NCBI RefSeq assembly: GCF_003150835.1
Contig: NZ_CP029479.1
Coordinates: 2,331,501-2,395,500, forward strand
DNA: 64,000 nt
Direction of reading: 5' to 3'
DNA from: Phenylobacterium parvum
GTDB taxonomy: Bacteria > Pseudomonadota > Alphaproteobacteria > Caulobacterales > Caulobacteraceae
Below the pieces are notes generated by a model that made no database searches, had not been told where the DNA came from, and was given only the letters and a program-made list of their open reading frames with translations. Below are positions 17,026-64,000 of the stretch, one piece after another. The translations under genes and the position numbers were made by a program. Every line of letters begins with the position of its first letter. Within the stretch, counting starts at the first letter, position 1.

Positions 17026-17126
17026 GTTGGGGAAGTCCCGGCTGTCCAGTCGCGGACCGGGCGGAGATAGGCGCGGTCGGACCCTGAGCCAACGCTTTCC
17101 GCAGGAAAATCCGTCGGGGACGGTGC

Positions 17127-17903: not shown

Positions 17904-18064
17904 GGTGCGGGTTCTCGGCTGCGGAGTCTTCGCGGCTCACCCTGGGGGCGACGGGGAAGCCTGGCAAGGCCCGGCCTGGGGCGCCCACGCCCCTGGCCGC
18001 CGCCTCGCCTCGCCCAAGAGGTCGGCATGGACAGGCGGGGCCCTGGCGTCGCATAGGAGGGTCC

Positions 18065-19186: not shown

Positions 19187-19833
19187 TGCGCCAGTTCCGC
19201 CGCCGCCGCTTCCTGCTGCATATCGGGATCGCCGCCCCGATCCTGGCCTATGTCAGCGTGGGGATCGCGGCCCTGACCTGGCCGGGGTTCGACCACGCCA
19301 CCCAGTACATCAGCGAACTGGGAGGCGAAGCGGCGCCCCATCCGGCCATCTTCAACATCGGCGTCCTGGTCTCGGGCGTCGGGGCCGGGATCGCCGGGAT
19401 CGGCTTCGCCCTGTCGGTCCTGGCCCTGGGCGGCGCGCGGGTCTCGGCCGCCGTCATCGCCCTCTGCTTCGCCCTCGCCGGTGTGGGGCTGGTGGTCTCC
19501 AGCATCTACCCCTGGCCGGATCCCCGGCACCTGGCGATCAACCTCGGACTCGGCATCCAGATCGCACCCCTCGCCCTGGTCTGGGCGCTGAGGAAGATCG
19601 AGGGCATGGGACGGCTGCGAGTGTTCCTGCTCGCCGTCTTCGTCGTCATGGCCATCCTGACGGTCCTGACCAAGCACCTGATCTTCAAGGGCCTGGTGAA
19701 CGACGACAATGTCGGCTGGTGGGAGAGGGGCTTCGCCATCGTCCTGGTGGGGTGGACCGGGGTGGCCGCCTACGTCCTCGAGCGCCGACTCCTGGCCCTC
19801 GCCAAGGCCGATTCCGCTGTCGAGCCCGCCTAG
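19186..19833 (+). CDS. DUF998 family membrane protein
   Basis: 215 residues with six membrane segments. The motifs GFDHATQYISELGGEAAPHP and FNIGVLVSGVGAGIAGIGF, with VVSSIYPWPDPRHL between later helices, are characteristic of DUF998. No enzymatic function is established for this family. It is translationally coupled to the acyltransferase (ATG at 19186 within TGATG) and followed 153 bp on by opgH, so a link to envelope glucan is possible. Confidence 0.78.
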   Translation: MRQFRRRRFLLHIGIAAPILAYVSVGIAALTWPGFDHATQYISELGGEAAPHPAIFNIGVLVSGVGAGIAGIGFALSVLALGGARVSAAVIALCFALAGVGLVVSSIYPWPDPRHLAINLGLGIQIAPLALVWALRKIEGMGRLRVFLLAVFVVMAILTVLTKHLIFKGLVNDDNVGWWERGFAIVLVGWTGVAAYVLERRLLALAKADSAVEPA

Positions 19834-19855
19834 GGCGCCCGGAATTCCGGCGCCC
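19833..19855 (+). other. GC-rich hairpin after the DUF998 gene
   Basis: GGGCG, one C, the perfect 12-bp palindrome CCGGAATTCCGG, then CGCCC. It starts in the TAG stop codon. It could stabilise the mRNA end or pause RNA polymerase, but there is no T-run behind it, so I do not call it an intrinsic terminator. Confidence 0.4.
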
Positions 19856-19986
19856 GGCGTGCTGGAACGCCTGCGGAGTGTACAGGCTTGCGTTCACGTT
19901 TCCGTTATTGCATATGCGGCGCTGCAACATAACGCGTTCGTGATCCACTACCGACAGTGGGTCGAACGAGGGAGCGGCACGGGACT

Positions 19987-21930: not shown

Positions 21931-21937
21931 GCCGACC

Positions 21938-22420
21938 TCAGGCGCCGGGATAGGTCTCGTCGACCAGGGCCAGGGGCTCGCCATCCGGCGTGACCAGCAC
22001 AGCACGGCAATGAAGGGCCGAAGGCCGCCCGTCCGTCTCGAGGATCCGCGTCTCCAGCCGGACCCGGCGATAGTCGAGCGGGCGCGCGACAACCCCGAAG
22101 GGCTCGTCGGTCTCGTCCAGGCGCCGGCGCATTTCGGGGGTCAGGCGGGCCGGCCTGTACCAGTTGACGGCGCGGGAGAGGAGGCGCTCACCCCAGACCA
22201 GCCGCACATGGCGGCAGGCCAGGACCTCGTCCTCGGGCGCCCCCAGCCGGCGTCGCACCTCGGCGTCCGGCGACAGGTCGGCGGCCTCGATCCGGGCCAG
22301 GACCCTCGGCCCGCCCGGCAGGCCGAGGGCCTCACACCGGGCCTGCAGGACCGCAGTGGCGCTGTCGGCGGCGTCGAGGTCCCGTCGGAGGGACTCCAGA
22401 TCGTCGGTGAGGAGGAACAT
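21938..22420 (-). CDS. Chorismate lyase-like fold protein (UbiC/UTRA-like), hypothetical
   Basis: 160 residues. The pattern VLACRHVRLVWGERLLSRAV, LTPEMRRRLDETDEPFGVVA and YRRVRLETRILE resembles the chorismate pyruvate-lyase fold. A UTRA-like ligand-binding reading is also possible, since UTRA shares this fold, but there is no HTH. The key UbiC residues cannot be assigned with certainty. ATG 22420 (MFLLTDD) is chosen because TAAGG lies about 10 bases before it; an earlier ATG at 22438 has no ribosome site. Convergent with opgH, with 7 bp between stops; divergent from thiE. Confidence 0.5.
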   Translation of the reverse strand: MFLLTDDLESLRRDLDAADSATAVLQARCEALGLPGGPRVLARIEAADLSPDAEVRRRLGAPEDEVLACRHVRLVWGERLLSRAVNWYRPARLTPEMRRRLDETDEPFGVVARPLDYRRVRLETRILETDGRPSALHCRAVLVTPDGEPLALVDETYPGA

Positions 22421-22511
22421 CGTGCGGGGCCTTAGCATTGCCGGCGGCCCGGCCCAACCCATTCCCGACAGGGGCCTTGGGCGCCCGGCGACGGCGCGCT
22501 AAGAGGGACCC

Positions 22512-23177
22512 ATGCCTCCGCCCGCCTGCCGCCTCTATCTCATCACACCGCCCCGGCTGGAGGATCCCGCCGCTTTTGCTGTCCGCCTCGAGGCGGCCCT
22601 TTCGGCAGGCGACGTCGCCGCCGTCCAGGTCCGGCTCAAGGACGCTTCAGAGGCCGAGATCACCGAGGCGATCCGGGTGCTCGGCCCTGTCGTCCGCGCC
22701 CACGACGCGGCCCTGATCCTGAACGACGATCCCGCCCTGGCCGCCCGGCTGGACTGTGACGGCGTTCATGTGGGCCAGTCCGACGCGCCCTACGCCCAGG
22801 CCCGTCGCCTGATGGGCCGGGACCGGATCGTCGGGGTCACCTGCCACGACAGCCGGCACCTGGCCATGGAGGCCGCAGAGCAGGGCGCAGACTACGTGGC
22901 CTTCGGCGCCTTCTTCCCCACCACGACCAAGGACGCCCCGACCCGGGCGGAGCCCGAGATCCTGTCGGTCTGGCAGGAGACCATGGAGACCCCCTGCGTC
23001 GCCATTGGCGGGATCACGCCGGAGAACGCCCGGGGCCTGGCCGCGGCGGGGGCGGACTTCCTGGCGGTCTCGGCGGGGGTGTGGAGCCATCCCGCCGGCG
23101 AGGCCGCGGCCGTGAAGGCCCTGAACGCGGCCATCGCCGCTGGCCTGGCGGACCGGGCCGGCGCCGCCTTGCCTTGA
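22512..23177 (+). CDS. thiE: Thiamine-phosphate synthase
   Basis: 221 residues, TIM-barrel. Family motifs: CRLYLITPP at the start, [12 protein letters not shown] (diphosphate/thiazole side), [53 protein letters not shown] (phosphate loop) and [11 protein letters not shown]. It couples hydroxymethylpyrimidine diphosphate and thiazole phosphate into thiamine phosphate. GAGGG at about 22503 precedes the ATG. The inositol monophosphatase-like gene follows after 29 bp; no TPP riboswitch is seen in the 91-bp upstream gap. Confidence 0.85.
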
Positions 23178-23206
23178 GGGGCCCGGACCACTAGGGTCCG
23201 CGCCCC

Positions 23207-24001
23207 ATGTCGACCCCTTCCGCACTCCTCAAGGTCATGTCCGACGCCGCCCGCAAGGCGGCCCGGGGCCTCAACCGCGACTTCGGCGAGCTCGCCGAAC
23301 TCCAGGTCTCCCGCAAGGGCGCCGCGGACTTTGTCTCCGCCGCCGACATCAAGGCCGAGCAGTCCCTGTTCGAGAGCCTGACCAAGGCCCGGCCCGGATA
23401 CGGCTTCCTGGGCGAGGAGCGGGGCATGGTCGAGGGCACCGACAAGACCCACACCTGGATCGTCGATCCGCTGGACGGCACGACCAACTTCCTGCACGCC
23501 ATCCCGCACTTCGCCATCAACATCGCCCTCCAGCGCGAGGGGGCGGTCGTGGCGGCCGTCACCTACAACCCCGTGAGCAACGAGCTTTTCTGGGCCGAGA
23601 AGGGCAAGGGCGCCTTCGTCAATGACCGCCGCCTGCGGGTCGCCGTGCGCCAGCGCCTCGACGAGTCCGTCCTGGCGACGGGCATCCCCTTCCTGGGCCA
23701 TGGCCAGCACGCCCGGTTCCTGAAGGAGCTGCACCAGGTCAGCCAGCGCGTCGCCGGGGTCCGCCGTTTCGGCGCCGCGGCCCTCGACCTGGCCTGGGTG
23801 GCCGCCGGCCGGATGGACGGATTCTGGGAACGCGACCTGAGCCCCTGGGACCTGGCGGCGGGCCTGCTCCTCGTCACCGAGGCGGGCGGAAAGGTCACCA
23901 CCGCCGAGGGGGGCGACGATATCCTGGCCGCCGGCAGCGTCTGCGCGGCCAACCTGGACCTGCATCCGCTGATCCTCGAGCGCCTGCGCGCCGCGGCCTG
24001 A
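23207..24001 (+). CDS. suhB: Inositol-1-monophosphatase family protein
   Basis: 264 residues. It has the lithium-sensitive phosphatase motifs: GFLGEERG (Glu metal ligand), WIVDPLDGTTNFLHAIPHFA (core metal motif DPLDGTTN), and late FWERDLSPWDLAAGLLLVTEAGGKV (motif WDLAAG). It should hydrolyse myo-inositol 1-phosphate or a related sugar phosphate using Mg2+. The E. coli homologue SuhB also acts in rRNA antitermination. It lies 29 bp downstream of thiE on the same strand, so co-transcription is likely. Confidence 0.9.
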   Translation: MSTPSALLKVMSDAARKAARGLNRDFGELAELQVSRKGAADFVSAADIKAEQSLFESLTKARPGYGFLGEERGMVEGTDKTHTWIVDPLDGTTNFLHAIPHFAINIALQREGAVVAAVTYNPVSNELFWAEKGKGAFVNDRRLRVAVRQRLDESVLATGIPFLGHGQHARFLKELHQVSQRVAGVRRFGAAALDLAWVAAGRMDGFWERDLSPWDLAAGLLLVTEAGGKVTTAEGGDDILAAGSVCAANLDLHPLILERLRAAA

Positions 24002-24030
24002 GCCGACCTGGGCCGGGCCTGGCGGCCAGC

Positions 24031-24060
24031 TTGACGAAACCGTCACGCCCCTGCGTTAGT
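24031..24060 (+). promoter_or_regulatory. Possible promoter of the glycerophosphodiesterase gene
   Basis: TTGACG at 24031-24036 with GTTAGTTC-like sequence from 24055 resembles the Caulobacter sigma-73 pattern, although the spacing and -10 match are imperfect. Transcription would start only a few bases before the ATG at 24069, giving a nearly leaderless message. Confidence 0.3.
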
Positions 24061-24068
24061 TCCGGGAC

Positions 24069-25142
24069 ATGCGCCCCCTCGCCCCCTCCCGCCGCGCCTT
24101 CGGCGTCGGCCTCGCCGCCGCAGGAGCCGTCATGGCCTCCGCCCGCCCCTCCTCCGCCGCGCCCCGCCCGCAGGTGGTCGCCCATCGCGGCGCCAGCGGC
24201 TACCGGCCGGAGCACACCGCCTCCGCCTACCTCCTGGCCATCGCCCAGGGCGCCGACGTCATCGAGCCGGACCTGGTCCTGACGAAGGACGGGGCCCTGG
24301 TGGCCCGCCACGAGAACGAGATCGGCGGCGCCACCGACGTGGCCTCCCGTCCTGAGTTCGCGGCCCGCAAGACGGTCCGGGACGTCGACGGCGAGCGCGT
24401 CGAGGGCTGGTTCACCGAGGACTTCACCCTGGCCGAGCTGAAGACCCTGCGCGCCCGCGAGCGCCTGCCGCAGTTACGCCCCGACAGCGCCCGCCACGAT
24501 GGCGAGGACGGCGTGCTGACCTTCGCCGAGGTGGCGGCCCTCGCCCGGCGGGAATCGGCGCGCCTCGGGCGGACCATCGGCCTCTGCCCCGAGATGAAGC
24601 ACCCGGCCCACTTCCGCAGGCTGGGCATGGCCTTCGAACTGATCATGGCCGCCGCCCTGAAGGCCGAAGGCCTGGATGACGCGGCTGCGCCGGTCCTGGT
24701 CCAGTGCTTCGAGGTCGGTCCCCTGAAGACCCTGGCGACCCTGTCCCGGGCGACCCGCGTCCAGCTGGTCTCGGCCGAGGGCGGCCCCGCCGACCTGCCC
24801 GGCGTGCGCTACGCCGACATGGTGACCGCGGCGGGCCTGAAGTCCATCGCCGGCTACGCCCAGGCCGTGGGGCCGGAATGGCGCCAGGTCCTGAAGGTGG
24901 ACGCCGTCGGCGCCCTGGCCGGGCCGACCGCCCTGGTGACCGACGCCCATGCGGCTGGCCTGAAGGTCTTTCCCTGGACTGTGCGGGCCGAGAACGCCTT
25001 CCTGCCGCAGGCCCTGCAGCGGGGGGCCGCGCCTGGCGACCGGGGCGACGTCGCCGCCCTCCTGAAGGCCCTCTACGCCGCCGGGGTCGACGGCCTGTTC
25101 AGCGATTTCCCCGACCTGGCCGTGGCGGCGCGCGGGGGCTGA
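24069..25142 (+). CDS. glpQ: Glycerophosphodiester phosphodiesterase (exported)
   Basis: 357 residues. A Tat-like signal leads (SRRAFGVGLAAAGAV), then the GDPD TIM-barrel with VAHRGASGYRPEHT (His39-Arg40 and Glu48), ADVIEPDLVLTKDGALVARH (Glu66, Asp68 and His81), CPEMKHP and a C-terminal GVDGLFSDFPD. It hydrolyses glycerophosphodiesters to glycerol 3-phosphate and an alcohol in the periplasm. The SRRAFG motif is compatible with Tat export but carries only two consecutive arginines. The stop is 4 bp from the stop of the convergent ABC transporter gene. Confidence 0.88.
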   Translation: MRPLAPSRRAFGVGLAAAGAVMASARPSSAAPRPQVVAHRGASGYRPEHTASAYLLAIAQGADVIEPDLVLTKDGALVARHENEIGGATDVASRPEFAARKTVRDVDGERVEGWFTEDFTLAELKTLRARERLPQLRPDSARHDGEDGVLTFAEVAALARRESARLGRTIGLCPEMKHPAHFRRLGMAFELIMAAALKAEGLDDAAAPVLVQCFEVGPLKTLATLSRATRVQLVSAEGGPADLPGVRYADMVTAAGLKSIAGYAQAVGPEWRQVLKVDAVGALAGPTALVTDAHAAGLKVFPWTVRAENAFLPQALQRGAAPGDRGDVAALLKALYAAGVDGLFSDFPDLAVAARGG

Positions 25143-25146
25143 GGCC

Positions 25147-26988
25147 TCAGTCGGCGCCGTCTGTGAACTGCAGGGCCGCCAGCCGGGCGTAAAGACCGCC
25201 CCGAGCCGTCAGTTCAGCGTGGGAGCCGGTCTCCACGACCCGGCCCTCATCCATCACGACGATGCGGTCGGCCTTGAGCACCGTGGCCAGCCGGTGGGCG
25301 ATCACCAGGGTGGTCCGGCCGCGCATGGCCTCGTCCAGGGCCTCCTGGACCAGCTTCTCGTTCTCGGCGTCCAGGGCGCTGGTCGCTTCGTCCAGCAGAA
25401 GGATAGGCGCCTGGCGCACCAGGGCGCGGGCGATGGCAAGGCGCTGCCTCTGGCCGCCTGAAAGTCCCCTCGCCCGTTCGCCGAGGGCAGAGCCGAATCC
25501 TTCGGGAAGGGCCTCGATGAAGGTTTCCGCCTGGGCGGCGCGGGCCGCGGCGCGCACGTCCGCCTCGCTGGCCCCGTCCCGACCGAAGGCGATGTTCTCG
25601 GCAGCCGAGCCGGAGAAGAGCGGGCTGTCCTGGGCCACCAGGGCGGCCTGGGCGCGGATGTCCCGGGGGTCGGCCTGGCGCAGGTCCACCCCGTCGATCC
25701 GAACGACGCCGGAAGACGGATCGTAGAACCGCAGGAGCAGGCGGAAGACGGTGCTTTTCCCCGCGCCTGAGGGGCCCACGAGGGCGACGCGCTCACCGGG
25801 GGCCACGGTGAGGGTCAGGCCCTTCAGGGCCGGGTTCGCCTCACGGCCGGGATAGGCGAAGACCACCTCCTCGAAGCGGATCTCGCCCCGGCCGGGCAGC
25901 TTCTGGGGATCGGCCGGCGGGGCGATCCCGGGCCGGGCGGACAGGAGCTCGGCGATCCGCTCCATGGCCCCGGCCGCCTTCTGGACATCGCCCCACATCT
26001 CGCCGAGGGCGCCGACGGAGCTGGCGGCGAAAACCGAGAGGAAGGCGAACTGGAACAGGGCGCCCCAGGTCAGTTCCCCCCTCTGGCCGGCGTGGACGCC
26101 CAGCCAGAAGACCGCCACGACCCCGCCGAAGACCAGCACGATGGCCGCCGCCGTCATCACCGCCCGGGCGGACATCCGGCGAAGCGAGGTGCGGAATGAA
26201 CGCTCCACCGCCGCGCCGAAGCGCTCGGAAGCGGCCTGCTCGCGACCGAAGGCCTGGACCGTCTCCAGGGCGTCCAGCGTCTCGCCCGCGTGGCCCACGG
26301 CCCGGGCGAACTCGTCCTGGGTGGCCGTGGTCAGGTTTCGGAGCGGGCGGGCGAAGAGGAAGAGGGGCACGACCACGACCGGGATGATCAGCAGCACGAG
26401 CAAGGTCAGCTTGGGGCTGACCAGCAGCATGAGGGCCAGGGCGCCGATCAGGATCAGGATGTTGCGCAGGAAGATCGAGGCCGAGGTCGCCAGCAGGTTC
26501 TCGATGATCTGGATGTCGGTGGTCAGGCGCGACAGGACCTCGCCGGTCCGGGTGGCCATGAAGAAGGCGGGGTCGAGGGTCAGGATGTGGCCGTAGACGT
26601 TTTTGCGGAGGTCCGCGACGATCCGCTCGCCCAGGCGCGTCACCCAGTAATAGCGAAGGGCCGTGAACAGGCCGAGGGCGACGGCCACCCCGCCCAGGAG
26701 CCAGAACCAGGGGTCCACCGAGGCCGAGCTGCGTTGCGAGGTCAGGTGCTCCACCAGCAGGCGGATGGCGCCGCTCATGCCCAGGGTGGTCGCCGAGGTC
26801 GCCACCATGAGCAGGCAGGCGATGAAGGTCTCGAACCCGTGGGCTTTCAGGATGGGCCAGAGGGTCGAAAGGGCCTTGAGGTTACGGGTCGAGCTCCGGC
26901 GCTCGGCCGCCGCCTCCATGTCCTGGGCCAGGGCGCCGCCCGCGCTGGGGCGGCCATCCACCGGAGATTCTACGGAACTGTCGGACAT
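25147..26988 (-). CDS. ABC transporter, fused permease and ATPase (exporter type)
   Basis: 613 residues: a six-helix exporter membrane domain (LSTLWPILKAHGFETF, TLDPAFFMATRTGEVLSRLT with the intracellular coupling loop, and GVVAVFWLGVHAGQRGELTWG) and a complete nucleotide-binding domain with Walker A GPSGAGKST, Q-loop VAQDSPLF, signature LSGGQRQRLA, Walker B ILLLDEATSALD and switch AHRLAT. All catalytic elements are canonical, so it should function as a homodimer. It resembles lipid A/multidrug (MsbA-like) half-transporters. The start at 26988 is chosen over an in-frame GTG at 26997. Confidence 0.9.
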   Translation of the reverse strand: MSDSSVESPVDGRPSAGGALAQDMEAAAERRSSTRNLKALSTLWPILKAHGFETFIACLLMVATSATTLGMSGAIRLLVEHLTSQRSSASVDPWFWLLGGVAVALGLFTALRYYWVTRLGERIVADLRKNVYGHILTLDPAFFMATRTGEVLSRLTTDIQIIENLLATSASIFLRNILILIGALALMLLVSPKLTLLVLLIIPVVVVPLFLFARPLRNLTTATQDEFARAVGHAGETLDALETVQAFGREQAASERFGAAVERSFRTSLRRMSARAVMTAAAIVLVFGGVVAVFWLGVHAGQRGELTWGALFQFAFLSVFAASSVGALGEMWGDVQKAAGAMERIAELLSARPGIAPPADPQKLPGRGEIRFEEVVFAYPGREANPALKGLTLTVAPGERVALVGPSGAGKSTVFRLLLRFYDPSSGVVRIDGVDLRQADPRDIRAQAALVAQDSPLFSGSAAENIAFGRDGASEADVRAAARAAQAETFIEALPEGFGSALGERARGLSGGQRQRLAIARALVRQAPILLLDEATSALDAENEKLVQEALDEAMRGRTTLVIAHRLATVLKADRIVVMDEGRVVETGSHAELTARGGLYARLAALQFTDGAD

Positions 26989-53213: not shown

Positions 53214-53237
53214 TCCCCTCACCCGAGGCTTCAGGCG

Positions 53238-53270
53238 CGCCGCCCCCCGGAAACGGGGGGCGGCGTTTCT
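53238..53270 (+). terminator. Rho-independent terminator of the first TonB receptor
   Basis: An 11-bp stem CGCCGCCCCCC / GGGGGGCGGCG with a GGAAAC loop (53249-53254), followed by TTTCT. It lies 25 bp after the stop at 53213 and insulates the second receptor operon. Confidence 0.85.
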
Positions 53271-53454: not shown

Positions 53455-56166
53455 ATGTTCAGGAAAACCGCCTGGGTGGCCGGAGCCGCCCTGTCCGTTC
53501 TGGCCGCCAGCAGCGCCATGGCCCAGCAGGCCGGCCGCAGGGATGCCGAGACCGAGGCCACCACCATTGGCGAGTTGATCGTCACGGCGGAGAAGCGCGA
53601 GCAGAAGCTGCAGGATGTTCCCATCGCCATCACGGCGTTCACGGCCAAGCAGAGGGAGACGACCGGGATCGTCACGATCCAGGACATAACCAACTTTACG
53701 CCCGGCCTGACCTACAATTCCGGATTGGACCGCGCCGCCATCCGGGGTGTCGGACGCCTGACCAACCGCCTGTCCTCGGATGCGGCGGTGGCCACCTATT
53801 CCGACGGCTTCTACACCACCTCGGTGGCAGAGGCGGGCAAGTCGACCCTGATCGTCGACCGCGTGGAAGTGCTGCGCGGGCCGCAGGGCACCCTGTACGG
53901 CCGAAACGCCATCGGCGGCGCGATCAACGTGATCTCCAAGCGACCGACGGACACGAAGGTTGGCGAAGCCCGTGTAACCCTCGGCAACTACGGCCTGCAC
54001 AACTACGAGCTGCTCGTCTCCGGCCCGCTGACGGACTTCGCGCGGGTTCAGTTCTACGGCCAGTTCGTCGAGCAGACGGAGAGCTACTTCCGCAATGTCG
54101 CGACGGGCAACCGCATCAAGGACGCCCTGAACCGCAACTACCTGGAAGTCCAGGCCGACATTGACGTCGGCGAACGGGGCCACCTCTGGGTGAAGTACGC
54201 CAAGCCCAAGTGGTTCAACGAGTCCGGAAACAGCGGCGGCACCCTGAGCAACAGGGAGTACTCGTACAACTACTCGGGCGTGGACGCCCTTACGATCAAT
54301 CCCGCCTTCGGCCTGACCCTGGCCAACAGGGTGCAGGTCGGGAACGTCACCTCGAACCCGCAGCTCAAGGATCCCCGGACCGTCAACACGGACTTCCCCA
54401 CACGGATCAAGAACGGCGGGATCAACATCCTGACCGCCGAATACACCCAGGAATTCGACGCCTTCGACCTGAAGTATGTAGGGGGCTTCGACTCCTACAA
54501 GTACGACCAGCTCTCAGACAGCGACGGGCTTCCGATCCTGAGCTTCCAGGTGCCTCTCAACGTCTCGCCCCTGCCATCGCAGAATACCTGCCAGTATGTT
54601 CCGGGCTGCAGGCCGCTGACCATCGACGCCAGCGGCAACCGCTTCAGCTATATCGAGGACAAGTCCTGGATCAGCCACGAGATCAACATCTCATCCAACC
54701 AGGAGGGACCGCTTCAGTGGATCCTCGGGCTCTATTACTTCAAGGACACCTACCACAATCCACAGATCTCCTATTCGTCACAGCCCGGAGCGCTGACGCC
54801 TTCGGGGGCCGGGGTTGGCAATCCGCTTGGGAACGCGATCAATCCGCGCGGTGAGTTCTATTACTTCGACTACGACATGACGACAGAGAGCCGGGCCGTG
54901 TTCGGCCAGCTCGACTGGAAGTTCCGCGACGTCTGGCAGTTCACCGCGGGCCTTCGCTACACCGCCGACCACAAGGATGGCTTTGAGTCCTTCCGCTCCC
55001 TGTGCATGACCAACTCCTGCATCGGCGACCCGCGGGTGTTCGGCACCCTGGTGGGCGGCGCAGCCCTGGACATCACCACCCTGCTGGCCGCCGGCTATCC
55101 CTCCCAGGCCGCAGCCAGGGTGGAAGGCGTCAAGACCGCCCCGACCCAGCAGGCCGCCAACAAGTGGGTCAACTACGTGATCGATCCCGCCACCGGCCGC
55201 GCCAACCGGCAGCTCGAGAACGACTGGTCGGGCGTGACCGGCACCCTCGGCATCGAATGGAACCCCGACACAAGCACCAACGCCTACTTCCGCTATGGCC
55301 GGGGCTACAAGTCCGGCGGCTTCAACGCCGCGGAGATCGTTCCTTCGCCCTCGACGGACGCGGAAACGGTCGACGCCTACGAGATCGGCCTGAAGAAGGA
55401 TTTCGGCTCCACGCTGCGGGTCAACACGGCGGTCTTCCTCTACAACTACAAGGACCTCCAGATCCCCATCCGGGTCCTCGTCCAGACCGAGCTTGGCAAT
55501 ACGGTCCAGACCCGGTTCCTGAACGTCCCGGAATCGGAGTCCAAGGGCGTCGAGATCGAGGCCAACTGGAAGCCTGTCCGCGGCCTCGATTTCCTGGCGA
55601 GCTATTCCTACAACCCGACCCAGGTGAAGAGCACCTGCACCACCGCGGACACCCGCGCCTGCGTGCTCGACGTGGCGGACCCCCTGGCCCAGGCGCCCGG
55701 CGCCCAGCCCGCCATCACCGTCAGCACGCCGACGACCACGCCGAACGACACCCAGACCAAGGTGCTGCAGAGCCTGAAGGGCAACAGCCTGCCGTATGCG
55801 CCCGAGAGCAAGTTCGCCCTCAGCGCCACCTACACCTGGCTCCTCGAGAACAGCAGCCTGACCGTGGGCGCCAACTATGTCTGGCGCGACGCCTCCTACG
55901 CCAACCTCTTCACCCGGGACTACAACCGGGCCCCGGCCTGGGACTCCAAGGACTTCCGGGTCATCTGGCGGACCTATTCCGGCAAGTACACGGTCACCGC
56001 CTACATGCGGAACGCCTTCGACGACCTGACCTTCAACTCGGCGAACGGCGGCACTCGCCTGGCGCCGGACCCGTCGAACCCCACGAACTTCAACAATGTC
56101 GTCCAGTCCCTGGCGATGAACCCGCCCAAGACCTACGGCGTGGCGGTCTACTACAAGTTCTGGTGA
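53455..56166 (+). CDS. TonB-dependent receptor leading the oxygenase operon
   Basis: 903 residues. Signal peptide (MFRKTAWVAGAALSVLAASS, then AMAQ), TonB-box-like IGELIVTAEKRE, plug (QKLQDVPIAITAFTAKQRE, VDRVEVLRGPQGTLYGRNAI) and a barrel ending GVAVYYKFW (terminal Trp). The RGPQGTLYGRNAIGG type is usual in receptors for siderophores and for bulky organic compounds. GGGGGGAAGAC precedes the ATG. The next gene starts 10 bp after the stop, so this receptor probably serves the enzymes downstream. Confidence 0.93.
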   Translation: MFRKTAWVAGAALSVLAASSAMAQQAGRRDAETEATTIGELIVTAEKREQKLQDVPIAITAFTAKQRETTGIVTIQDITNFTPGLTYNSGLDRAAIRGVGRLTNRLSSDAAVATYSDGFYTTSVAEAGKSTLIVDRVEVLRGPQGTLYGRNAIGGAINVISKRPTDTKVGEARVTLGNYGLHNYELLVSGPLTDFARVQFYGQFVEQTESYFRNVATGNRIKDALNRNYLEVQADIDVGERGHLWVKYAKPKWFNESGNSGGTLSNREYSYNYSGVDALTINPAFGLTLANRVQVGNVTSNPQLKDPRTVNTDFPTRIKNGGINILTAEYTQEFDAFDLKYVGGFDSYKYDQLSDSDGLPILSFQVPLNVSPLPSQNTCQYVPGCRPLTIDASGNRFSYIEDKSWISHEINISSNQEGPLQWILGLYYFKDTYHNPQISYSSQPGALTPSGAGVGNPLGNAINPRGEFYYFDYDMTTESRAVFGQLDWKFRDVWQFTAGLRYTADHKDGFESFRSLCMTNSCIGDPRVFGTLVGGAALDITTLLAAGYPSQAAARVEGVKTAPTQQAANKWVNYVIDPATGRANRQLENDWSGVTGTLGIEWNPDTSTNAYFRYGRGYKSGGFNAAEIVPSPSTDAETVDAYEIGLKKDFGSTLRVNTAVFLYNYKDLQIPIRVLVQTELGNTVQTRFLNVPESESKGVEIEANWKPVRGLDFLASYSYNPTQVKSTCTTADTRACVLDVADPLAQAPGAQPAITVSTPTTTPNDTQTKVLQSLKGNSLPYAPESKFALSATYTWLLENSSLTVGANYVWRDASYANLFTRDYNRAPAWDSKDFRVIWRTYSGKYTVTAYMRNAFDDLTFNSANGGTRLAPDPSNPTNFNNVVQSLAMNPPKTYGVAVYYKFW

Positions 56167-56176
56167 CGGAGAGGGG

Positions 56177-57082
56177 ATGATGGCGGAGGGCGCAGGAACC
56201 GGTCGAACGGAGCTGATCCGCCGCCTGGGCCTTGAGCCCTACGTCCTGGAGCTGGAGATCGATGGCCTGACCGTCGTGCCGCCGGAGGTGCACGGGGTTC
56301 CCCTCGCGGCCTTCGACGCCATGGCGGACTGGCTGCTCGAGGCCAGCGAGCGGATCGTCGGCTGCCGCTTCACCCTGGAGGACGGCCCCGAGGCCGAGGT
56401 CGAGGTTCCCGACGGGGCGACCCGGCTGGGCGAGCGCGGCGGGGAGAACACCCAGTTCCTCCTGCCGCAGCTGGCGCGCGGCCACCGCCTGTTCCGGGAC
56501 CTGGCGGTGAACCCCGTCGCCGTGGCCCTGGCGCGCTACATGATCGGCCTGCGCGAGACCCGGTTCTCGAGCCACAACGCTTTCATCAAGTGGCGGGGCG
56601 GCTATGGCTACGGCCCGAACCTCGGGCTGCACGCCGACCAGGGCGCCTCGCCCCAGCCCTGGGGCCGTACGGCCCTGGCGGCGAACAGCAACTGGACCCT
56701 GACCGACTACACCCTCGAGGCGGGGCCCCTCGCCTTCGTGCGGGGCTCCCACCGCTCGGTCTCCCAGCCCCTGCAGCCGGGAGCGACCCGCCGGGCCGAG
56801 CCGGTGATCTGCCCCAGGGGATCGCTGATCATGTTCCACGGCGCAACCTGGCACGGGGCCTTCCCGCGGACGGCGCCGGGCATGCGGCTGATGGTGGCCA
56901 ACTATTACCGCCACATGATGACCCTGCCGCAGGAGGAGTTCCGCAACGGCTTCCCCCGGGACCTGGCGGGGGACTGCGCAGACCCGGCGACCTTCGCGAC
57001 CCTCTGCGGGTTTGCCGACGAGTTCCCCTATGTCAGGGCCGAGCGCCCCTTCCCGCGGGTCCGAGGGGCGGCGGCGCGTTGA
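56177..57082 (+). CDS. Phytanoyl-CoA dioxygenase (PhyH) family Fe(II)/2-oxoglutarate oxygenase
   Basis: 301 residues. Iron-binding facial triad: His152 and Asp154 (LGLHADQG) and distal His226 (MFHGATWHGAF); Arg237 (APGMRLMV) fits the 2-oxoglutarate-binding position. The N-terminal half (EIDGLTVVPPEV) follows the family. It would hydroxylate an unactivated carbon next to a carboxyl, phosphonate or ammonium group. GGAGAGGGG precedes the ATG, 10 bp after the receptor. The HD-domain gene comes 83 bp later; PhyH-type oxygenase plus HD protein resembles the PhnY-PhnZ pair of phosphonate degradation. Confidence 0.85.
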   Translation: MMAEGAGTGRTELIRRLGLEPYVLELEIDGLTVVPPEVHGVPLAAFDAMADWLLEASERIVGCRFTLEDGPEAEVEVPDGATRLGERGGENTQFLLPQLARGHRLFRDLAVNPVAVALARYMIGLRETRFSSHNAFIKWRGGYGYGPNLGLHADQGASPQPWGRTALAANSNWTLTDYTLEAGPLAFVRGSHRSVSQPLQPGATRRAEPVICPRGSLIMFHGATWHGAFPRTAPGMRLMVANYYRHMMTLPQEEFRNGFPRDLAGDCADPATFATLCGFADEFPYVRAERPFPRVRGAAAR

Positions 57083-57165
57083 CACCTCCCCGGGCCGGGC
57101 TCAGGATACCGGCTCATCAAAAATCGGCCGGACGCAGCTCCGGCGACCAGGGCAGGGAGGCCGAC

Positions 57166-57756
57166 ATGGCGGACGGTGAGATGCAGATGAAGGCGAATTT
57201 CCACGCCATGACCGAGAGCACCGCCGAGGACTGGGCCGCCATCGGCCGCGCCGGCGCGCCCTTCCACCGCGAGTTCCCGAACCGGCTGATCGCCCACCTG
57301 AACATGCTTGGCGAGGACAGCGGCGGCTTCGCCGTGACCCGCCTGGAGCACTCCCTGCAGACCGCCACCCGCGCCCACCGCGACGGCCGGGACGAGGAGT
57401 ACGTGGTCTGCGCCCTGCTGCACGACGTGGGCGACATCCTGGCGCCGTCCAACCACGCCGAGCTGGGAGCCATGATCCTGAAGCCCTACATCTCCGAGCA
57501 GAACTACTGGATGATGGACAAGCACGGGATCTTCCAGGGTTACTACTTCTTCCACCACCTGGGCCTGGACCGCGACATGCGCGACGAGTTCCGGGGCCAT
57601 CCCTGGTTCGAGTACACGGCCCAGTTCTGCCACCTCTACGACCAGAACAGCTTTGACCCGGCCTACGAGTCCATGCCCCTGTCGGCCTTCGAGCCCATGA
57701 TCCACCGCGTGACGGCCCAGCCCAAGCGCTCGATCTACCGCCGCAAGGACGCCTGA
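57166..57756 (+). CDS. HD-domain protein of the mixed-valent diiron oxygenase type (PhnZ/TmpB/MIOX-like)
   Basis: 196 residues, the length of PhnZ and TmpB. Six candidate metal ligands are in order: His62 (LEHSLQ), His86-Asp87 (ALLHDVGD), His97 (SNHAELG), His120 (MDKHGIF) and Asp159 (CHLYDQ). In the HD oxygenases the same order holds, with the 24-residue gap between the first two histidines identical to PhnZ and the His97-His120 gap similar. Simple HD phosphohydrolases lack the two extra histidines at these positions. The Lys that marks phosphonate-binding PhnZ (four after the fourth His) is Gln124 here, so the substrate may not be a phosphonate. Encoded between PhyH and a crotonase. The annotation 'phosphohydrolase' remains the alternative. 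Confidence 0.7.
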   Translation: MADGEMQMKANFHAMTESTAEDWAAIGRAGAPFHREFPNRLIAHLNMLGEDSGGFAVTRLEHSLQTATRAHRDGRDEEYVVCALLHDVGDILAPSNHAELGAMILKPYISEQNYWMMDKHGIFQGYYFFHHLGLDRDMRDEFRGHPWFEYTAQFCHLYDQNSFDPAYESMPLSAFEPMIHRVTAQPKRSIYRRKDA

Positions 57757-57790
57757 GGGAGCGGGGCCGCCCGGCCCCGGACTGGCCCGC

Positions 57791-58603
57791 ATGGCCTTTG
57801 AAGACATCCTCTACGAGGTGGAGGCGGGGGTGGCGACGGTCACCCTCAACCGCCCCGACCGGCTGAACGCCTGGCGGGGCGTGATGGAGGCCGAGCTTCG
57901 CCAGGCCATGCGCCTGGCGGCGGACGACGCCGAGGTGAAGGTCATTGTCCTGACCGGCGCCGGGCGCGGCTTCTGCGCGGGCGCGGACATGGACGTCCTG
58001 CAGGGCGCCGTTTCCGCCGGAGGAACGGGCGGTGGCGCGCCTGACGCCTTCGACCCGGCCTCGCGCCCGGACTTCCGCCTGCAGTACCCCTACTTCCCGG
58101 CCGTCCCGAAGCCGATCCTTGGGGCGATCAACGGCGCCTGCGCCGGCCTGGGCATGGTGATGGCCCTCTACACCGACATCCGGTTCGCCTCGGAGGCGAC
58201 GGTCTTCACCACCGCCTTCTCGCGCCGCGGCCTGATCGCCGAGCACGGGATGTCCTGGCTCCTGCCGCGGATCGTCGGCATGGCCAACGCCGCCGACCTG
58301 CTCTACTCGGCCCGACGGGTCGACGCCGCCGAGGCCCTCCGGATCGGGCTGGTCAACCGGGTCTTCCCGGCCGCCACCTTCCGGGACGAGGTCATGGCCT
58401 ACGCACGGATGCTGGCCAGCGAGGTCTCGCCCCGGTCCCTCGCCGTGATGAAGCGCGAGCTCTGGAACAGCCCGTTCCAGTCGCTCTCCGAAGCGATCGT
58501 CGACGCCAACGCCGACATGGCCCTCAGCCTGAAGTCCGAGGACTTCAAGGAGGGCGTCGCCCACTTCCTCGAGAAGCGACCGGCGAGGTTCACGGGGCGT
58601 TGA
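57791..58603 (+). CDS. Enoyl-CoA hydratase/isomerase
   Basis: 270 residues. VTLNRPDRLNAWRGVME, VIVLTGAGRGFCAGADMDVL and AINGACAGLGMVMALYTDIR (both oxyanion peptides intact), RRGLIAEHGMSWLLPRIVG (catalytic Glu region) and ending FLEKRPARFTGR. It begins 34 bp after the HD gene and ends 33 bp before the ABC transporter pair, so it belongs to the same run. Probably hydrates an unsaturated CoA ester produced after the oxygenase steps (inference). Confidence 0.9.
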   Translation: MAFEDILYEVEAGVATVTLNRPDRLNAWRGVMEAELRQAMRLAADDAEVKVIVLTGAGRGFCAGADMDVLQGAVSAGGTGGGAPDAFDPASRPDFRLQYPYFPAVPKPILGAINGACAGLGMVMALYTDIRFASEATVFTTAFSRRGLIAEHGMSWLLPRIVGMANAADLLYSARRVDAAEALRIGLVNRVFPAATFRDEVMAYARMLASEVSPRSLAVMKRELWNSPFQSLSEAIVDANADMALSLKSEDFKEGVAHFLEKRPARFTGR

Positions 58604-58636
58604 CGTCGGAAGGTTCCAGTCGGGGAGTGCGTTCAG

Positions 58637-60424
58637 GTGGGGCGTGAGGCGGCCAAGCCGGCGGACGGCGCCGCCGTGCTTGCCGTCTACCTGCGGCCGG
58701 AGGGCCGGCGGCTGGCCGCCCTCGCCGTCTTCCTGCTCGCCGGTACGGCCGTGCAGCTGGCTTCGCCCCAGATCATCCGGACCTTCATCGATACGGCCGC
58801 CACCGGCGGCGCCGACGCGCCCCTTGAACGGCTCTGGATGCTGGCGGGCCTGTTCATCGCCGTCACCATCCTGGCCCAGCTCCTGCAGATCGGCTCCACC
58901 TATTTCAGCGAGCAGCTGGGCTGGTCGGCCACGAACCGGATGCGCCAGGACCTGGCGACCCACGCCCTGCACCTGGACATGGCCTTCCACACCGCCAAGT
59001 CGCCGGGTGAACTGATCGAGAGGGTGGACGGCGACGTCGCCGCCCTGGCGGCTTTCTTCTCCCAGTTCATCCTGCAGATCATCGGCGGCGCCCTGCTGCT
59101 GGCCGGCATCCTCATCGTCCTCTACCTGCAGGACTGGCGGATCGGCGTCCTCCTGACCGGCTTCGCCGTTGTCGCCGGCCTGGTCCTGCACGCCATCCGC
59201 CGGATCGCAGGCGGCCGGTGGGAGCGCCTGCGCGAGGCCTGGTCGGCCTTCTCGGGCTTCCTGGAGGAGAGGCTGGCGGGCCTGGACGACGTCCGGGCCA
59301 ATGGCGGCGGGCCCCATGTCATGCGGCGAATGGGCGAGGTGAACGCAGAGCTCCTCGACGCCAACGTCGCCGCCGCCCGGCGCGGGCACTGGATCTTCCT
59401 GACCGCCAGCGCCCTCTTCTCCATCGGCTTCGGCATGGCCCTGGCCCTGGGGGTCTGGCTGTTCCAGCGGGGCGAGGCCAGCATCGGCACGGTCTTCATG
59501 TTCATGCAGTACGCCGGGATGATGTCCCTGCCGATCATGCTGATCGGCCAGCAGCTGCAGCAGTTCCAGGCGGCCTCGGCCAGCCTCAACCGGATCCGCG
59601 ACCTGCGCGCCATCCAGGCGGAGCTGACCGACGGGCCGGGCGTCGGCTGGGAGGGTCGGCGCACCGACGCGCCCGCCGTCGGCTTCGAGGCGCTGACCTT
59701 CGCCTACCGGGCGGACACCCCGGTGATCCGCGGCCTCGACCTGCAGGTTCCGGCCGGCGAGGTGATGGGCCTGCTGGGCCGGACCGGCAGCGGCAAGACG
59801 ACCCTGACCCGCCTGCTCTTCCGGCTCTATGACCCGCAGGGCGGGGCCGTGACCCTGGACGGGGTGGACATCCGCGGGGCCCGGCTGGCGGAGCTGCGCG
59901 GCCGGATCGGCCTGGTCACCCAGGAGGTCCAGCTCTTCGACGCCAGCATTCGCGACAACGCCACCCTGTTCGATCCCGCCATCCCCGACGCCCGCATCAC
60001 CGAGGTCCTGGAAGACCTGGGCCTGGGCGACTGGCTGTCGCGCCAGTCTTCGGGCCTGGCCACAGTGCTTCGGGCCGGCGGGGGGCTGTCGGCGGGCGAG
60101 GCCCAGCTCCTGGCCTTCGCCCGGGTCTTCCTCAAGGACCCGGGGCTCGTGGTGCTGGACGAGGCGTCCTCGCGCCTCGACCCGGCCACCGACCAGCTGA
60201 TCGAGCGGGCCCTTGACCGCCTCCTCGGCGCGGACGGGACCGGGCGGCGGCGGACCGCCATCATCATCGCCCACAAGCTCTCGACCGTTCAGAGGGCCGA
60301 CCGGATCGCCATCCTCGACCAGGGCCGCCTGATGGAGACCGGGCGGCGGGCCGAGCTCGAGGCCGACCCGGAGTCGGCCTACGCCCGCCTGCTGCGCACC
60401 GGCCTTGAGGAGGTCATGGCGTGA
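58637..60424 (+). CDS. ABC exporter subunit A of a heterodimer
   Basis: 595 residues from GTG 58637: six-helix membrane domain (LAVFLLAGTAVQLASPQIIR, TKAFHTAKSPGELIERVD-like coupling loop, and a permease end with GVWLFQRGEASIGTVF) and ATPase with Walker A GRTGSGKTT, Walker B LVVLDEASSRLD with catalytic Glu, and switch AHKLST. The signature is LSAGEAQ, a degenerate form of LSGGQ. The next gene supplies the canonical signature. The stop overlaps the next GTG by four bases. Confidence 0.9.
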   Translation: MGREAAKPADGAAVLAVYLRPEGRRLAALAVFLLAGTAVQLASPQIIRTFIDTAATGGADAPLERLWMLAGLFIAVTILAQLLQIGSTYFSEQLGWSATNRMRQDLATHALHLDMAFHTAKSPGELIERVDGDVAALAAFFSQFILQIIGGALLLAGILIVLYLQDWRIGVLLTGFAVVAGLVLHAIRRIAGGRWERLREAWSAFSGFLEERLAGLDDVRANGGGPHVMRRMGEVNAELLDANVAAARRGHWIFLTASALFSIGFGMALALGVWLFQRGEASIGTVFMFMQYAGMMSLPIMLIGQQLQQFQAASASLNRIRDLRAIQAELTDGPGVGWEGRRTDAPAVGFEALTFAYRADTPVIRGLDLQVPAGEVMGLLGRTGSGKTTLTRLLFRLYDPQGGAVTLDGVDIRGARLAELRGRIGLVTQEVQLFDASIRDNATLFDPAIPDARITEVLEDLGLGDWLSRQSSGLATVLRAGGGLSAGEAQLLAFARVFLKDPGLVVLDEASSRLDPATDQLIERALDRLLGADGTGRRRTAIIIAHKLSTVQRADRIAILDQGRLMETGRRAELEADPESAYARLLRTGLEEVMA

Positions 60425-62268
60425 GCGAGATCGAACGCCCCTCCGCGAACCCCGAGGCCGGCGAGATCCCGCCGCCCCTGCCGGCGCCGGACCAGACCGC
60501 CTTCCGCCAGGCCGTGCGGATCGCGGCGGCCCGGCCCTGGCTGTTCGGCGTCAGCATGGCGCTCTACGCCGCCTTCTACGCCCTGCCCCTCCTGTCCGGC
60601 CTCGTCCAGCGGGCGATCTTCGACAACCTGTCGGGCCACGCCCAGGCCGGGTTCAACGTCTGGACCCTGGTGGGGTTCTGGTTCGCCGCCCAGCTGTCGC
60701 CCCTGTTCGTCTCCTACTTCACGCCCTGGGCCTTCGTGACCTTCACCTCGGCGTCGCGGCTGATGATCCGCTCGAACATGATGGGCTGGATCATGTTCGC
60801 GAAGGGCCCGCGGGTCTCTCCCGGCACCTCGGGCGAGGCGCTCAGCCGCTTCCGCGACGACGTCGCCGAGGTCATCGCCTTCATGGAGGGCTGGGCCGAG
60901 ACCTTCGGCCAGGCGGTGTTCGCGGTGCTGGCCCTGATCATCATGTGGCGGATCAACACCCCCGTGACCCTGGCCATCATCGCCCCGATGATCCTGATGG
61001 TCTTCATCACCCAGAAGATCACCGCCGGCATCCACCGGTACTCCCGGGTGGCCAGGGAGGCGGAGGCGCGCGTCACCTCCTTCGTGGGCGAGGCCTTCAC
61101 AGCCGTCCAGGCCGTGCGGGTGGCCGGCGCCGAGGACCGGGTCCTGGGCCGGCTGTCGGACCTCAACGAGACCCGCAGGACGACGGCCGTCCGTCACCGC
61201 ATCTACGTCACCCTCCTGGACACCTTCGGGGCGGGAACCTCCAGCCTGGCCCTCGGCCTGATCCTGCTGCTGGCGGCGGGCGCCATGAAGGCGGGCGAGT
61301 TCTCGGTGGGCGACTTCACCCTCTTCGCCGCCTATGTCGGCGCCGCGACCTCGGCGCCCCGCTGGCTGGGCCGGCTGCTGGCGCGCAAGCGCACCGCCGA
61401 TGTCGCCCTGATGCGCATCGAGACCCTTCTGGGCGACGCCCCGCGCGAGCGGATCACCGAGGCCCGGCCCCAGGGCCCGGAGCCCACCGGTCGCCACGAG
61501 CCCCTGCGCACCCTGGAGGTCCGCGGCCTGACCTGTCGCCATGGCGGGACCGGCAACGGGGTGGAGGACGTCAGCTTCACCCTGGAGAGGGGCACTGTGA
61601 CCATCGTCACGGGACGGGTGGGGGCAGGCAAGACCACCTTGCTCCGCGGCCTCCTGGGCCTGCTTCCCGCCCAGGCCGGAGAGGTGTTCTGGAACGGCGA
61701 GCGCGTCGAGGACCCCGCCACCTTCCTGACCCCGCCACGCTGCGCCTACACGGGCCAGACCCCGCGCCTGTTCACCGAGACCCTGCGCGACAACATCGCC
61801 ATGGGCCTGGACCTGACGCCGGCGGACCTGGACCGCGCGGTCCACCTGGCGGTGATGGAGGAGGACGTGGCGCGCCTCGCCGAGGGCCTGGACACCCGGG
61901 TCGGCACCCGGGGCGTGACCCTCTCGGGTGGCCAGGTCCAGCGCTCGGCCGCAGCCCGCATGTTCGCCCGCCGGCCGGACCTCCTGGTCTTCGACGACGC
62001 CTCCAGCGCCCTGGACGTGCGCACCGAGCACGCCTTCTGGACCCGCCTGTTCGAGCAGGAGGACGACCGACCCACCTGCCTCGCCGTCTCGCACCGGCTG
62101 GAGGCCTATCGCCGGGCGGACCAGATCCTGGTGATCGAGGGCGGGCGGATCGCGGCGCGGGGCGACCTTCGCACCCTCCTGAAGGACAGCCCCCTGTTCC
62201 ACGAGATCTGGACCGAGACCCTCAAGGCCCACGCCCACGGCGAGGAGGCCGTTGCGCTCCCAACCTGA
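60421..62268 (+). CDS. ABC exporter subunit B of a heterodimer
   Basis: 615 residues from GTG 60421 (overlaps the previous TGA). Membrane domain (FGVSMALYAAFYALPLLSGL, GTSGEALSRFRDDVAEVIA, IIMWRINTPVTLAIIAPMIL) and ATPase with Walker A GRVGAGKTT, canonical signature LSGGQVQRS and Walker B LLVFDDASSALD, where the catalytic Glu is Asp. Together with subunit A this gives one functional and one degenerate ATP site, as in heterodimeric exporters such as TM287/288 or BmrCD. Confidence 0.9.
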   Translation: MSEIERPSANPEAGEIPPPLPAPDQTAFRQAVRIAAARPWLFGVSMALYAAFYALPLLSGLVQRAIFDNLSGHAQAGFNVWTLVGFWFAAQLSPLFVSYFTPWAFVTFTSASRLMIRSNMMGWIMFAKGPRVSPGTSGEALSRFRDDVAEVIAFMEGWAETFGQAVFAVLALIIMWRINTPVTLAIIAPMILMVFITQKITAGIHRYSRVAREAEARVTSFVGEAFTAVQAVRVAGAEDRVLGRLSDLNETRRTTAVRHRIYVTLLDTFGAGTSSLALGLILLLAAGAMKAGEFSVGDFTLFAAYVGAATSAPRWLGRLLARKRTADVALMRIETLLGDAPRERITEARPQGPEPTGRHEPLRTLEVRGLTCRHGGTGNGVEDVSFTLERGTVTIVTGRVGAGKTTLLRGLLGLLPAQAGEVFWNGERVEDPATFLTPPRCAYTGQTPRLFTETLRDNIAMGLDLTPADLDRAVHLAVMEEDVARLAEGLDTRVGTRGVTLSGGQVQRSAAARMFARRPDLLVFDDASSALDVRTEHAFWTRLFEQEDDRPTCLAVSHRLEAYRRADQILVIEGGRIAARGDLRTLLKDSPLFHEIWTETLKAHAHGEEAVALPT

Positions 62269-62318
62269 GGCGGACGCCTGCGCCCTTGCCCTGCCGGTCC
62301 CGGCGCCGCAAAGTTTCC

Positions 62319-62326
62319 ATACGTAT
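62319..62326. promoter_or_regulatory. Palindrome ATACGTAT upstream of the nitronate monooxygenase gene
   Basis: An 8-bp perfect palindrome in the 83-bp gap before the GTG at 62352, in a locally AT-rich stretch (AAAGTTTCCATACGTATCG). It could be part of an internal promoter or operator; support is weak. Confidence 0.25.
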
Positions 62327-62351
62327 CGTTCAAAACCCCGGAGAGCCTCCC

Positions 62352-63323
62352 GTGAAGACCCGCATTACTGAACTGTTCGGCATCGAGCACCCCATCGTCC
62401 AGGGGGGCATGCACTTCGTGGGCCTGGCGGAAATGGCCGCCGCCGTCTCCAACGCCGGGGGCCTGGGCATCATCACCGGCCTGACCCAGCGCACGCCGGA
62501 CGACCTGGCCAAGGAAATCCGCCGCTGCCGGGAAATGACCGACAAGCCCTTCGGCGTGAACCTGACCTTCCTGCCCTCGATCAACCCGCCGGACTATCCG
62601 GGCTACATCCGGGCGATCATCGACAACGGCGTGAAGATCGTCGAGACCGCCGGCAACAACCCCCAGAAGTACATGGCCGACCTGAAGGCGGCGGGGGTCA
62701 AGGTGATCCACAAGTGCACCTCGGTCCGCCACTCCCTGAAGGCCGAGGCCGTGGGCTGCGACGCCATCAGCGTCGACGGCTTCGAGTGCGGCGGCCATCC
62801 CGGCGAGGATGACGTGCCCAACTTCATCCTCCTGCCCCGGGCGGCCGAGGAGCTGAAGATCCCCTTCGTCGCCTCCGGCGGCGTAGCCAACGGCAAGCAG
62901 CTGGCGGCGGCCCTGGCCCTCGGCGCCGAGGGCATCAACATGGGCACCCGCTTCATCGCCACGAAGGAGGCCCCGGTCCACGACAACGTCAAGCAGGCCA
63001 TCGTGGACGCCTCCGAGCTGGACACCCGCCTGGTCATGCGCCCCCTGCGCAACACCGAGCGCGTGCTGAACAACGCCGCCGTCCAGCGCCTTCTGGAAAA
63101 GGAAAAGGCCCTGGGCCCGAACCTGAAGTTCGAGGACATCATCCATGAGGTGGGCGGGGTCTATCCGCGCATCATGCAGGATGGCGAGATGGACGCCGGC
63201 GCCTGGTCCTGCGGCATGGTGGTGGGCCTGATCCACGACGTCCCCACCTGCAAGGAGCTGATCGAGGGCATCGTCGCCGAGGCCGAGGAGATCATCCGCG
63301 GCCGCCTCGCGCGCTTCGCCTGA
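62352..63323 (+). CDS. Nitronate monooxygenase/2-nitropropane dioxygenase-type FMN enzyme
   Basis: 323 residues. TIM-barrel pattern of the NMO family: IEHPIVQGGMHFVGLAEMAA, VSNAGGLGIITGLTQRTPDD, PFGVNLTFLPSINPPDY, DGFECGGHPGEDD (FMN-phosphate/active-site region) and GGVANGKQLAAALALGAEGI with GTRF. It oxidises nitronates or functions as an enoyl reductase-like FMN enzyme; family annotation is often loose. GGAG lies before the GTG. It is 83 bp after the ABC pair and 37 bp before the amidase. Confidence 0.85.
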   Translation: MKTRITELFGIEHPIVQGGMHFVGLAEMAAAVSNAGGLGIITGLTQRTPDDLAKEIRRCREMTDKPFGVNLTFLPSINPPDYPGYIRAIIDNGVKIVETAGNNPQKYMADLKAAGVKVIHKCTSVRHSLKAEAVGCDAISVDGFECGGHPGEDDVPNFILLPRAAEELKIPFVASGGVANGKQLAAALALGAEGINMGTRFIATKEAPVHDNVKQAIVDASELDTRLVMRPLRNTERVLNNAAVQRLLEKEKALGPNLKFEDIIHEVGGVYPRIMQDGEMDAGAWSCGMVVGLIHDVPTCKELIEGIVAEAEEIIRGRLARFA

Positions 63324-63360
63324 CCTGACCAGAGCACACCGGAACCCAGGAGCCCCCGCC

Positions 63361-64000
63361 ATGACCCAGGACCTGACCCGCGCCTCCGCCGCCGAGCTTT
63401 CGGGCCTCTACGCCGCCCGAAAGGCCTCGCCCGTCGAGGTCCTGGAAGCGGTCCTGGACAAGGCGGCCCGGCTCAATCCGGTGCTCAACGCCCTGCCCCT
63501 GATCGACGCCGACGGCGCCCGGGCCCAGGCCAGGGCGTCCGAGGCCCGCTGGGCCAAGGGCGAGCCCCTGTCGCCCCTCGACGGGGTCCCGGTCTCGATC
63601 AAGGAGCTGATCAAGGTGAAGGGCTGGCCCCTCACCATGGCCAGCCAGCTGACCGACAAGACCCCGCAGACGGAGGACGCCACCACCGTCTCCCGCCTGC
63701 GGGAAGCCGGGACCGTGATCTTCGCCTCCAACTCCAGCCCCGAATACGGGTTCAAGGGGGTGACGGACTCGCCGCTGAACGGGATCACCCGCAACCCCTG
63801 GAACACCGAGCGGACGCCGGGCGGCTCCTCCGGCGGCGCGGGGGCTGCGGTGGCGGCGGGGATCGGGCCCCTGTCCATCGGCACGGACGGCGGCGGCTCG
63901 GTGCGGATCCCGGCGGCCTGCACGGGCCTGGTGGGGCTGAAGGCCACCTACGGCCGCATCCCGGCCTGGCCGGCCTCCATGCACGGGGACCTGGCCAACA
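63361..64000 (+). CDS. Amidase signature family enzyme (partial, runs past the window)
   Basis: 213 codons are visible. The catalytic triad is present: Lys81 (VSIKELIKVKG), cis-Ser156 (TPGGSSGGAG) and nucleophile Ser180 (GTDGGGSVRIPAA). The Lys-Ser and Ser-Ser distances of 75 and 24 equal those of FAAH. It hydrolyses amides to carboxylic acid and ammonia. Last visible gene of the run that starts with the receptor at 53455. Confidence 0.92.
   Translation, partial: MTQDLTRASAAELSGLYAARKASPVEVLEAVLDKAARLNPVLNALPLIDADGARAQARASEARWAKGEPLSPLDGVPVSIKELIKVKGWPLTMASQLTDKTPQTEDATTVSRLREAGTVIFASNSSPEYGFKGVTDSPLNGITRNPWNTERTPGGSSGGAGAAVAAGIGPLSIGTDGGGSVRIPAACTGLVGLKATYGRIPAWPASMHGDLAN

Follow-up and report, generated by a model that had tools for sequence, protein, structure and literature searches.

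In a 64,000-nucleotide stretch of the 2.83 Mb genome of Phenylobacterium parvum (hereafter the window; contig NZ_CP029479.1, positions 2,331,501 to 2,395,500), a TonB-dependent receptor gene opens a run of co-directional genes in which a PhyH-family Fe(II)/2-oxoglutarate (2OG) dioxygenase is followed directly by an HD-domain protein, hereafter HD. We give an even chance to the reading that HD is a stand-alone oxygenase-like protein and the stable point of this locus, and not one half of a fixed PhyH–HD pair. On this reading, the CoA-type catabolic cluster (an enoyl-CoA hydratase, two ABC half-transporters, a quinone reductase resembling PA1024, an amidase, and a MaoC protein) that lies downstream of HD in a small-genome Phenylobacterium clade would probably have its promoter immediately ahead of HD, and the TonB receptor–PhyH cassette found upstream in only a few clade members would be in the course of being lost. 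HD itself may hold a mixed-valent diiron centre, use O2 without an external reductant, and cleave a C–C or C–X bond beside the hydroxylated carbon of a non-phosphonate substrate, and PhyH, where present, may hydroxylate a compound imported by its own receptor.

The contrast between HD and its upstream neighbour is apparent in nine close relatives (G081, G046, G007, G005, G044, G047, G045, G088, and G092), across which HD keeps 91–99% identity and is followed in every case by the enoyl-CoA hydratase and ABC genes as far as the contigs run, the order continuing in seven through the nitronate monooxygenase (NMO)-family gene, the amidase, and MaoC. PhyH is missing or decayed in eight of the nine, and other TonB receptors replace that of the window in most. 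In these nine, gene order, which a preliminary description of this DNA had put forward as a check on its operon, holds from HD onward, and in eight it breaks at PhyH. At the scale of the genus, HD is matched in 73 of 101 genomes, with at least 60% identity in 68 and only 34–38% in five, and an intact PhyH (at least 94% identical) adjoins it in two, the window's own genome and G081 (among the other 66 with HD at 60% or more, some are draft assemblies whose contig breaks off close to HD). G044 has a PhyH remnant with an internal stop, and the remaining listed PhyH matches in the genus are 28–41% identical, none of them lying within 60 kb of HD on the same contig.

Comparison at the DNA level locates the breakpoints. 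Five relatives (L011, L012, L110, L112, and L115) go from the terminator region closely to window positions 57070–57074 without the TonB–PhyH block, the receptor of L115 being unseen because its contig extends upstream of HD for only about 0.3 kb; L013 and L113 retain the TonB gene but, of PhyH, only a short tail, and L116 retains PhyH fragments without the window's TonB gene. From this pattern, the cassette seems to be older than P. parvum and, in the direction that we infer, to have been repeatedly lost while HD persisted. Since only about 120 bp separate the hairpin region from HD in the five cassette-free relatives, a promoter is likely to lie in the HD leader, and the conservation of this leader points the same way: GCGTTGACA stands at one position in nine of 10 close-clade sequences, whether PhyH is present or not, and the window's TTGACA overlaps the PhyH stop codon. 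Weighing against such a promoter, L115 reads TGGACA at this site, TTGACA does not stand at the aligned site in L117, L118, and L120, and a scan with a consensus promoter found nothing. The order of genes behind the receptor was described correctly, but a receptor-led operon is not established, because the promoter-like TTGACA lies between PhyH and HD.

More divergent arrangements suggest that the CoA-type cluster was built up around HD. A tenth relative, L120 (HD 87% identical), has the order TonB0–HD–ABC–ABC and then a partly different one, with PhyH absent. In L117 and L118 (HD 88–90%), the gene directly upstream of HD, and divergent from it, is orthologous (88%) to the SDR gene at window position 47056, and downstream come one gene without a label and acyl-CoA dehydrogenases that are only 33–38% like those past the window; HD is the only gene of the operon between the SDR and acyl-CoA dehydrogenase genes. 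As a separate observation, synonymous divergence (dS) against four relatives is lower in the HD and NMO-family genes (0.07–0.21) than in the rest of the run (0.22–0.55, two comparisons in which the TonB genes are not orthologous being set aside); possible causes are codon bias, high expression, and recombination.

With regard to HD itself, the full diiron-oxygenase ligand set noted in the preliminary description is present (H62, H86, D87, H97, H120, and D159, in the pattern H..HD..H..H..D) and invariant in all 134 unique sequences, the window's copy included. Among the matches listed for its predicted fold, PhnZ, TmpB, and then MIOX outrank every hydrolase; a common fold is no proof of function, and the models support a structural grouping of HD with the diiron HD oxygenases. 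The most serious competitor, to which we nonetheless assign a rather low probability, is that HD has a PhnZ-like scaffold but works as a metal-dependent phosphohydrolase, its operon context being incidental. All 134 sequences carry Arg59, at −3 from the first His, and an Arg at about this distance ahead of that His is, according to a 2020 review, shared by all HD phosphohydrolases (PMC8177086). That review also describes YxxE as the substrate loop of the PhnZ and TmpB phosphonate oxygenases (PMC8177086), and HD lacks it, the aligned stretch being S52-G-G-F55 with F or Y at position 55 in all 134 sequences. Both features weigh against an oxygenase, and a mostly solo, wide distribution would fit a housekeeping role. 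However, a PhyH-paired relative of HD, L190, has YxxE together with the same Arg, so the Arg by itself is no proof against an oxygenase; three relatives of 33–35% identity (L224, L226, and L237) show Gln at this position. The fold ranking, the full ligand set, and the adjacency of family members to 2OG dioxygenases also speak against a hydrolase, and annotation is divided, a Sphingobium plasmid copy being labelled phosphohydrolase and a Phaeobacter copy inositol oxygenase family.

At E ≤ 1e-12, relatives of HD are matched in 90 of the 289 genomes sampled for the class and in 72 of the 397 sampled for the phylum, P. parvum being counted among them. After the close clade, hand-named duplicates, and identical HD stretches were dropped, 190 loci were retained, some of them still closely related, and a same-direction gene lies within 150 bp of HD upstream in 77 and downstream in 53. 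Pfam assigns these close neighbours to class II aldolases (six upstream, four downstream), TauD (five upstream), PhyH (two upstream), and Mpo1-like proteins (three upstream). A same-strand 2OG dioxygenase directly upstream of HD is found at none of 105 loci with at least 60% identity (at 35 of them, a gene in the same direction does lie close upstream), at one of 37 with 50–60%, at six of 42 with 40–50%, and at none of six below. Left out of these pairs were weak or opposite-strand 2OG matches in L023 (PhyH-like, E 4.8e-6, opposite strand), L152 (opposite strand), and L223 (TauD, opposite strand), as well as PhyH-like genes separated from HD by other genes in L069, L189, L226, and L227; the background frequency of PhyH (27 of 1,268 genes) was set aside as unfair, since PhyH itself had been used to retrieve some of the loci. 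The five TauD and two PhyH cases beside relatives of 40–60% identity count against a stand-alone HD, since they indicate that a 2OG–HD partnership recurs in the wider family. In a midpoint-rooted FastTree tree of 120 sequences, printed without support values, the two PhyH cases stand apart, four TauD cases cluster with one apart, and aldolase cases are scattered over several places. Judged from gene neighbourhoods, 2OG hydroxylases are one apparent partner of the family among several, far from the window's branch.

Some of these associations deserve mention in their own right. TauD/TfdA genes lie directly upstream of HD relatives of 43–48% identity in L181 (P. aeruginosa plasmid pF045_1), L215, L229, L234, and L235; that of L181 adjoins genes annotated as choline dehydrogenase and choline ABC transporter substrate-binding protein, and these loci look like a TmpA/TmpB-like arrangement for quaternary amines lacking the YxxE loop. 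A class II aldolase/adducin-family gene is a recurrent partner: 11 loci of several lineages (L137, L140, L145, L151, L153, L173, L175, L179, L182, L236, and L244) have one next to HD in the same orientation, either before or after it; in L179, a small, mobilizable 13-kb MobQ plasmid of Sphingobium baderi, the order class II aldolase–HD–alpha/beta hydrolase lies downstream of an IS1380-like element. The three upstream neighbours matching Mpo1-like (2-hydroxy-palmitate dioxygenase), taken by sequence as L170, L172, and L174, fall in one clade and so represent one event, which is only a lead. We tentatively entertain, as a possibility short of an expectation, that HD belongs to a widespread further branch of non-phosphonate HD oxygenases that would cleave a C–C bond next to a hydroxylated carbon (for example in the alpha-oxidation of 2-hydroxy acids), fed by lineage-specific enzymes such as TauD or PhyH dioxygenases, sterol-desaturase-like hydroxylases, and class II aldolases, and acting in most Caulobacteraceae on a common metabolite without a local partner.

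The preliminary description went further in proposing that PhyH hydroxylates an imported compound that HD then cleaves. Even without phosphonates, and restricted to this lineage, we find such a division of labour improbable. The two genes do adjoin with an 83-bp gap, and PhyH is a working gene in the P. parvum lineage because it is under purifying selection (ratio of nonsynonymous to synonymous divergence 0.09 between the window genome, G000, and G081, against 0.03–0.13 for the other genes compared); PhyH also lies directly upstream of HD in the distant loci L190 and L222. Against this stand the close relatives and genus genomes in which HD lacks an intact PhyH, and the fact that none of 12 loci of PhyH relatives in the genus (35–41% identity, stretches of 7.5–13 kb) has an HD-like gene nearby, which together speak against an obligate pair. 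TonB receptors make up seven of the 46 complete neighbours scanned at these loci, and PhyH looks to be more a partner of receptors than of HD. PhyH matched no NCBIfam model at E ≤ 0.001. Elsewhere in the genus, contig C45 of G004 carries six PhyH-family matches inside about 18 kb (8156–26184).

A phosphonate pathway of the PhnY–PhnZ or TmpA–TmpB type, the parallel first drawn for this locus, is very improbable and was rejected: PhnZ and TmpB are the nearest solved structures of HD and two PhnD-like binding proteins, which do not decide the matter, are encoded elsewhere in the genome, but HD reaches 38.9, 31.2, and 27.9 bits in three phosphonate HD-oxygenase models whose cut-offs are 214.6, 300, and 300, lacks YxxE, and neighbours CoA and flavin enzymes, and PhnJ was not found in the genome, other phosphonate genes not having been searched for. 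The hint of a nitrogen-bearing substrate falls as well, because the NMO-family protein matches PA1024, its nearest solved relative, with 390 bits over nearly its full length (the next kind reaching 207 bits), and amidase alone is weak evidence. PA1024, formerly presumed a nitronate monooxygenase, is an NADH:quinone oxidoreductase (PMC10033279). The NMO label is misleading, and the protein would probably share the PA1024 activity.

Features of the gene run are given below. Eight co-directional genes with short gaps are ordinary in bacteria. Gene calls and Pfam confirm their number, strand, and families as first described, the successive gaps being 10, 83, 34, 33, −4, 83, and 37 bp, and the strong hairpin anticipated before them sets them apart from the preceding receptor. 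The interpretation built on this layout is partly supported.

Features of the HD locus, in window coordinates
Feature	Positions	Strand	Evidence
Intrinsic-terminator-like hairpin after the preceding TonB receptor	53237..53266	+	13 pairs, 12 GC
TonB-dependent receptor, 903 aa	53455..56166	+	Pfam PF00593 and PF07715
PhyH-family Fe(II)/2OG dioxygenase, 301 aa	56177..57082	+	PF05721, 51.4 bits
Conserved HD leader, promoter-like TTGACA at 57079-57084	57079..57165	+	Leader alignment, motif position
HD-domain protein with predicted PhnZ/TmpB fold; YxxE loop absent, Arg three residues before first His	57166..57756	+	
Enoyl-CoA hydratase/isomerase (crotonase, PRK06210 type)	57791..58603	+	NCBIfam NF004857, 383.2 bits vs cut-off 341
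ABC exporter half-transporter 1	58637..60424	+	PF00664 and PF00005
ABC exporter half-transporter 2	60421..62268	+	PF00664 and PF00005
NMO-family flavoprotein, PA1024-like, probable NADH:quinone oxidoreductase	62352..63323	+	390 bits to PA1024 structures
Amidase, cut by window end	63361..64000	+	PF01425; true end L009:11456, about window 64755

The run is longer than the eight genes seen at first: past the truncated amidase, it continues with MaoC, a ComB-like 2-phosphosulpholactate phosphatase (L009:12382-13119, about window 65681-66418), an OYE/FadH-like reductase, and an MFS-like transporter gene, so labelled from its reading frame, after which come acyl-CoA dehydrogenase genes on the opposite strand. 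An upstream island (28–50 kb) encodes a thiolase, a CoA transferase, crotonases, SDRs, a flavin monooxygenase-like protein, and amidohydrolases. An upstream CaiB gene was considered as an alpha-methylacyl racemase, a hint of branched-acid alpha-oxidation, which was not supported (136–138 bits to a CaiB/BaiF protein and formyl-CoA transferases, about 70 to racemases). PHROGs gave no match.

The lasting interest of the locus resides in this uncharacterised, widespread HD branch, a common family with a confidently predicted PhnZ-like fold and no function in the literature searched. Among the titles and abstract beginnings listed, we recognised no study of the family; no paper joined any three of an HD protein, a PhyH dioxygenase, a TonB receptor, and Phenylobacterium, and none covered most terms around HD and class II aldolase. 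If HD were an oxygenase, a common enzyme would be absent from metabolic maps; if it were a hydrolase, oxygenase chemistry could no longer be read from a PhnZ fold. In both cases, the locus illustrates that adjacency of genes, taken by itself, is an unreliable guide to pairing.

Among known systems, PhnZ (4MLM and 4N6W) and TmpB (6NPA) are HD-domain mixed-valent diiron oxygenases. The 2020 review names these two and MIOX (myo-inositol oxygenase) as HD-domain oxygenases (PMC8177086), and NCBIfam has a model for one further, the PhnZ1-type hydroxymethylphosphonate dioxygenase. PhyH shares a PF05721 match with its nearest solved structures, DhiD, EasH, and SptF, which it resembles weakly (best E 0.0028), and the likeness of the NMO-family protein to PA1024 makes its quinone reductase function here putative. 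As for HD, it has in common with PhnZ and TmpB the six-ligand set and the predicted fold, MIOX ranking third, whereas it is only 20–25% identical to them, falls under all three family cut-offs, has an Arg at −3 of the first His, lacks the YxxE loop, and usually stands without an adjoining 2OG dioxygenase.
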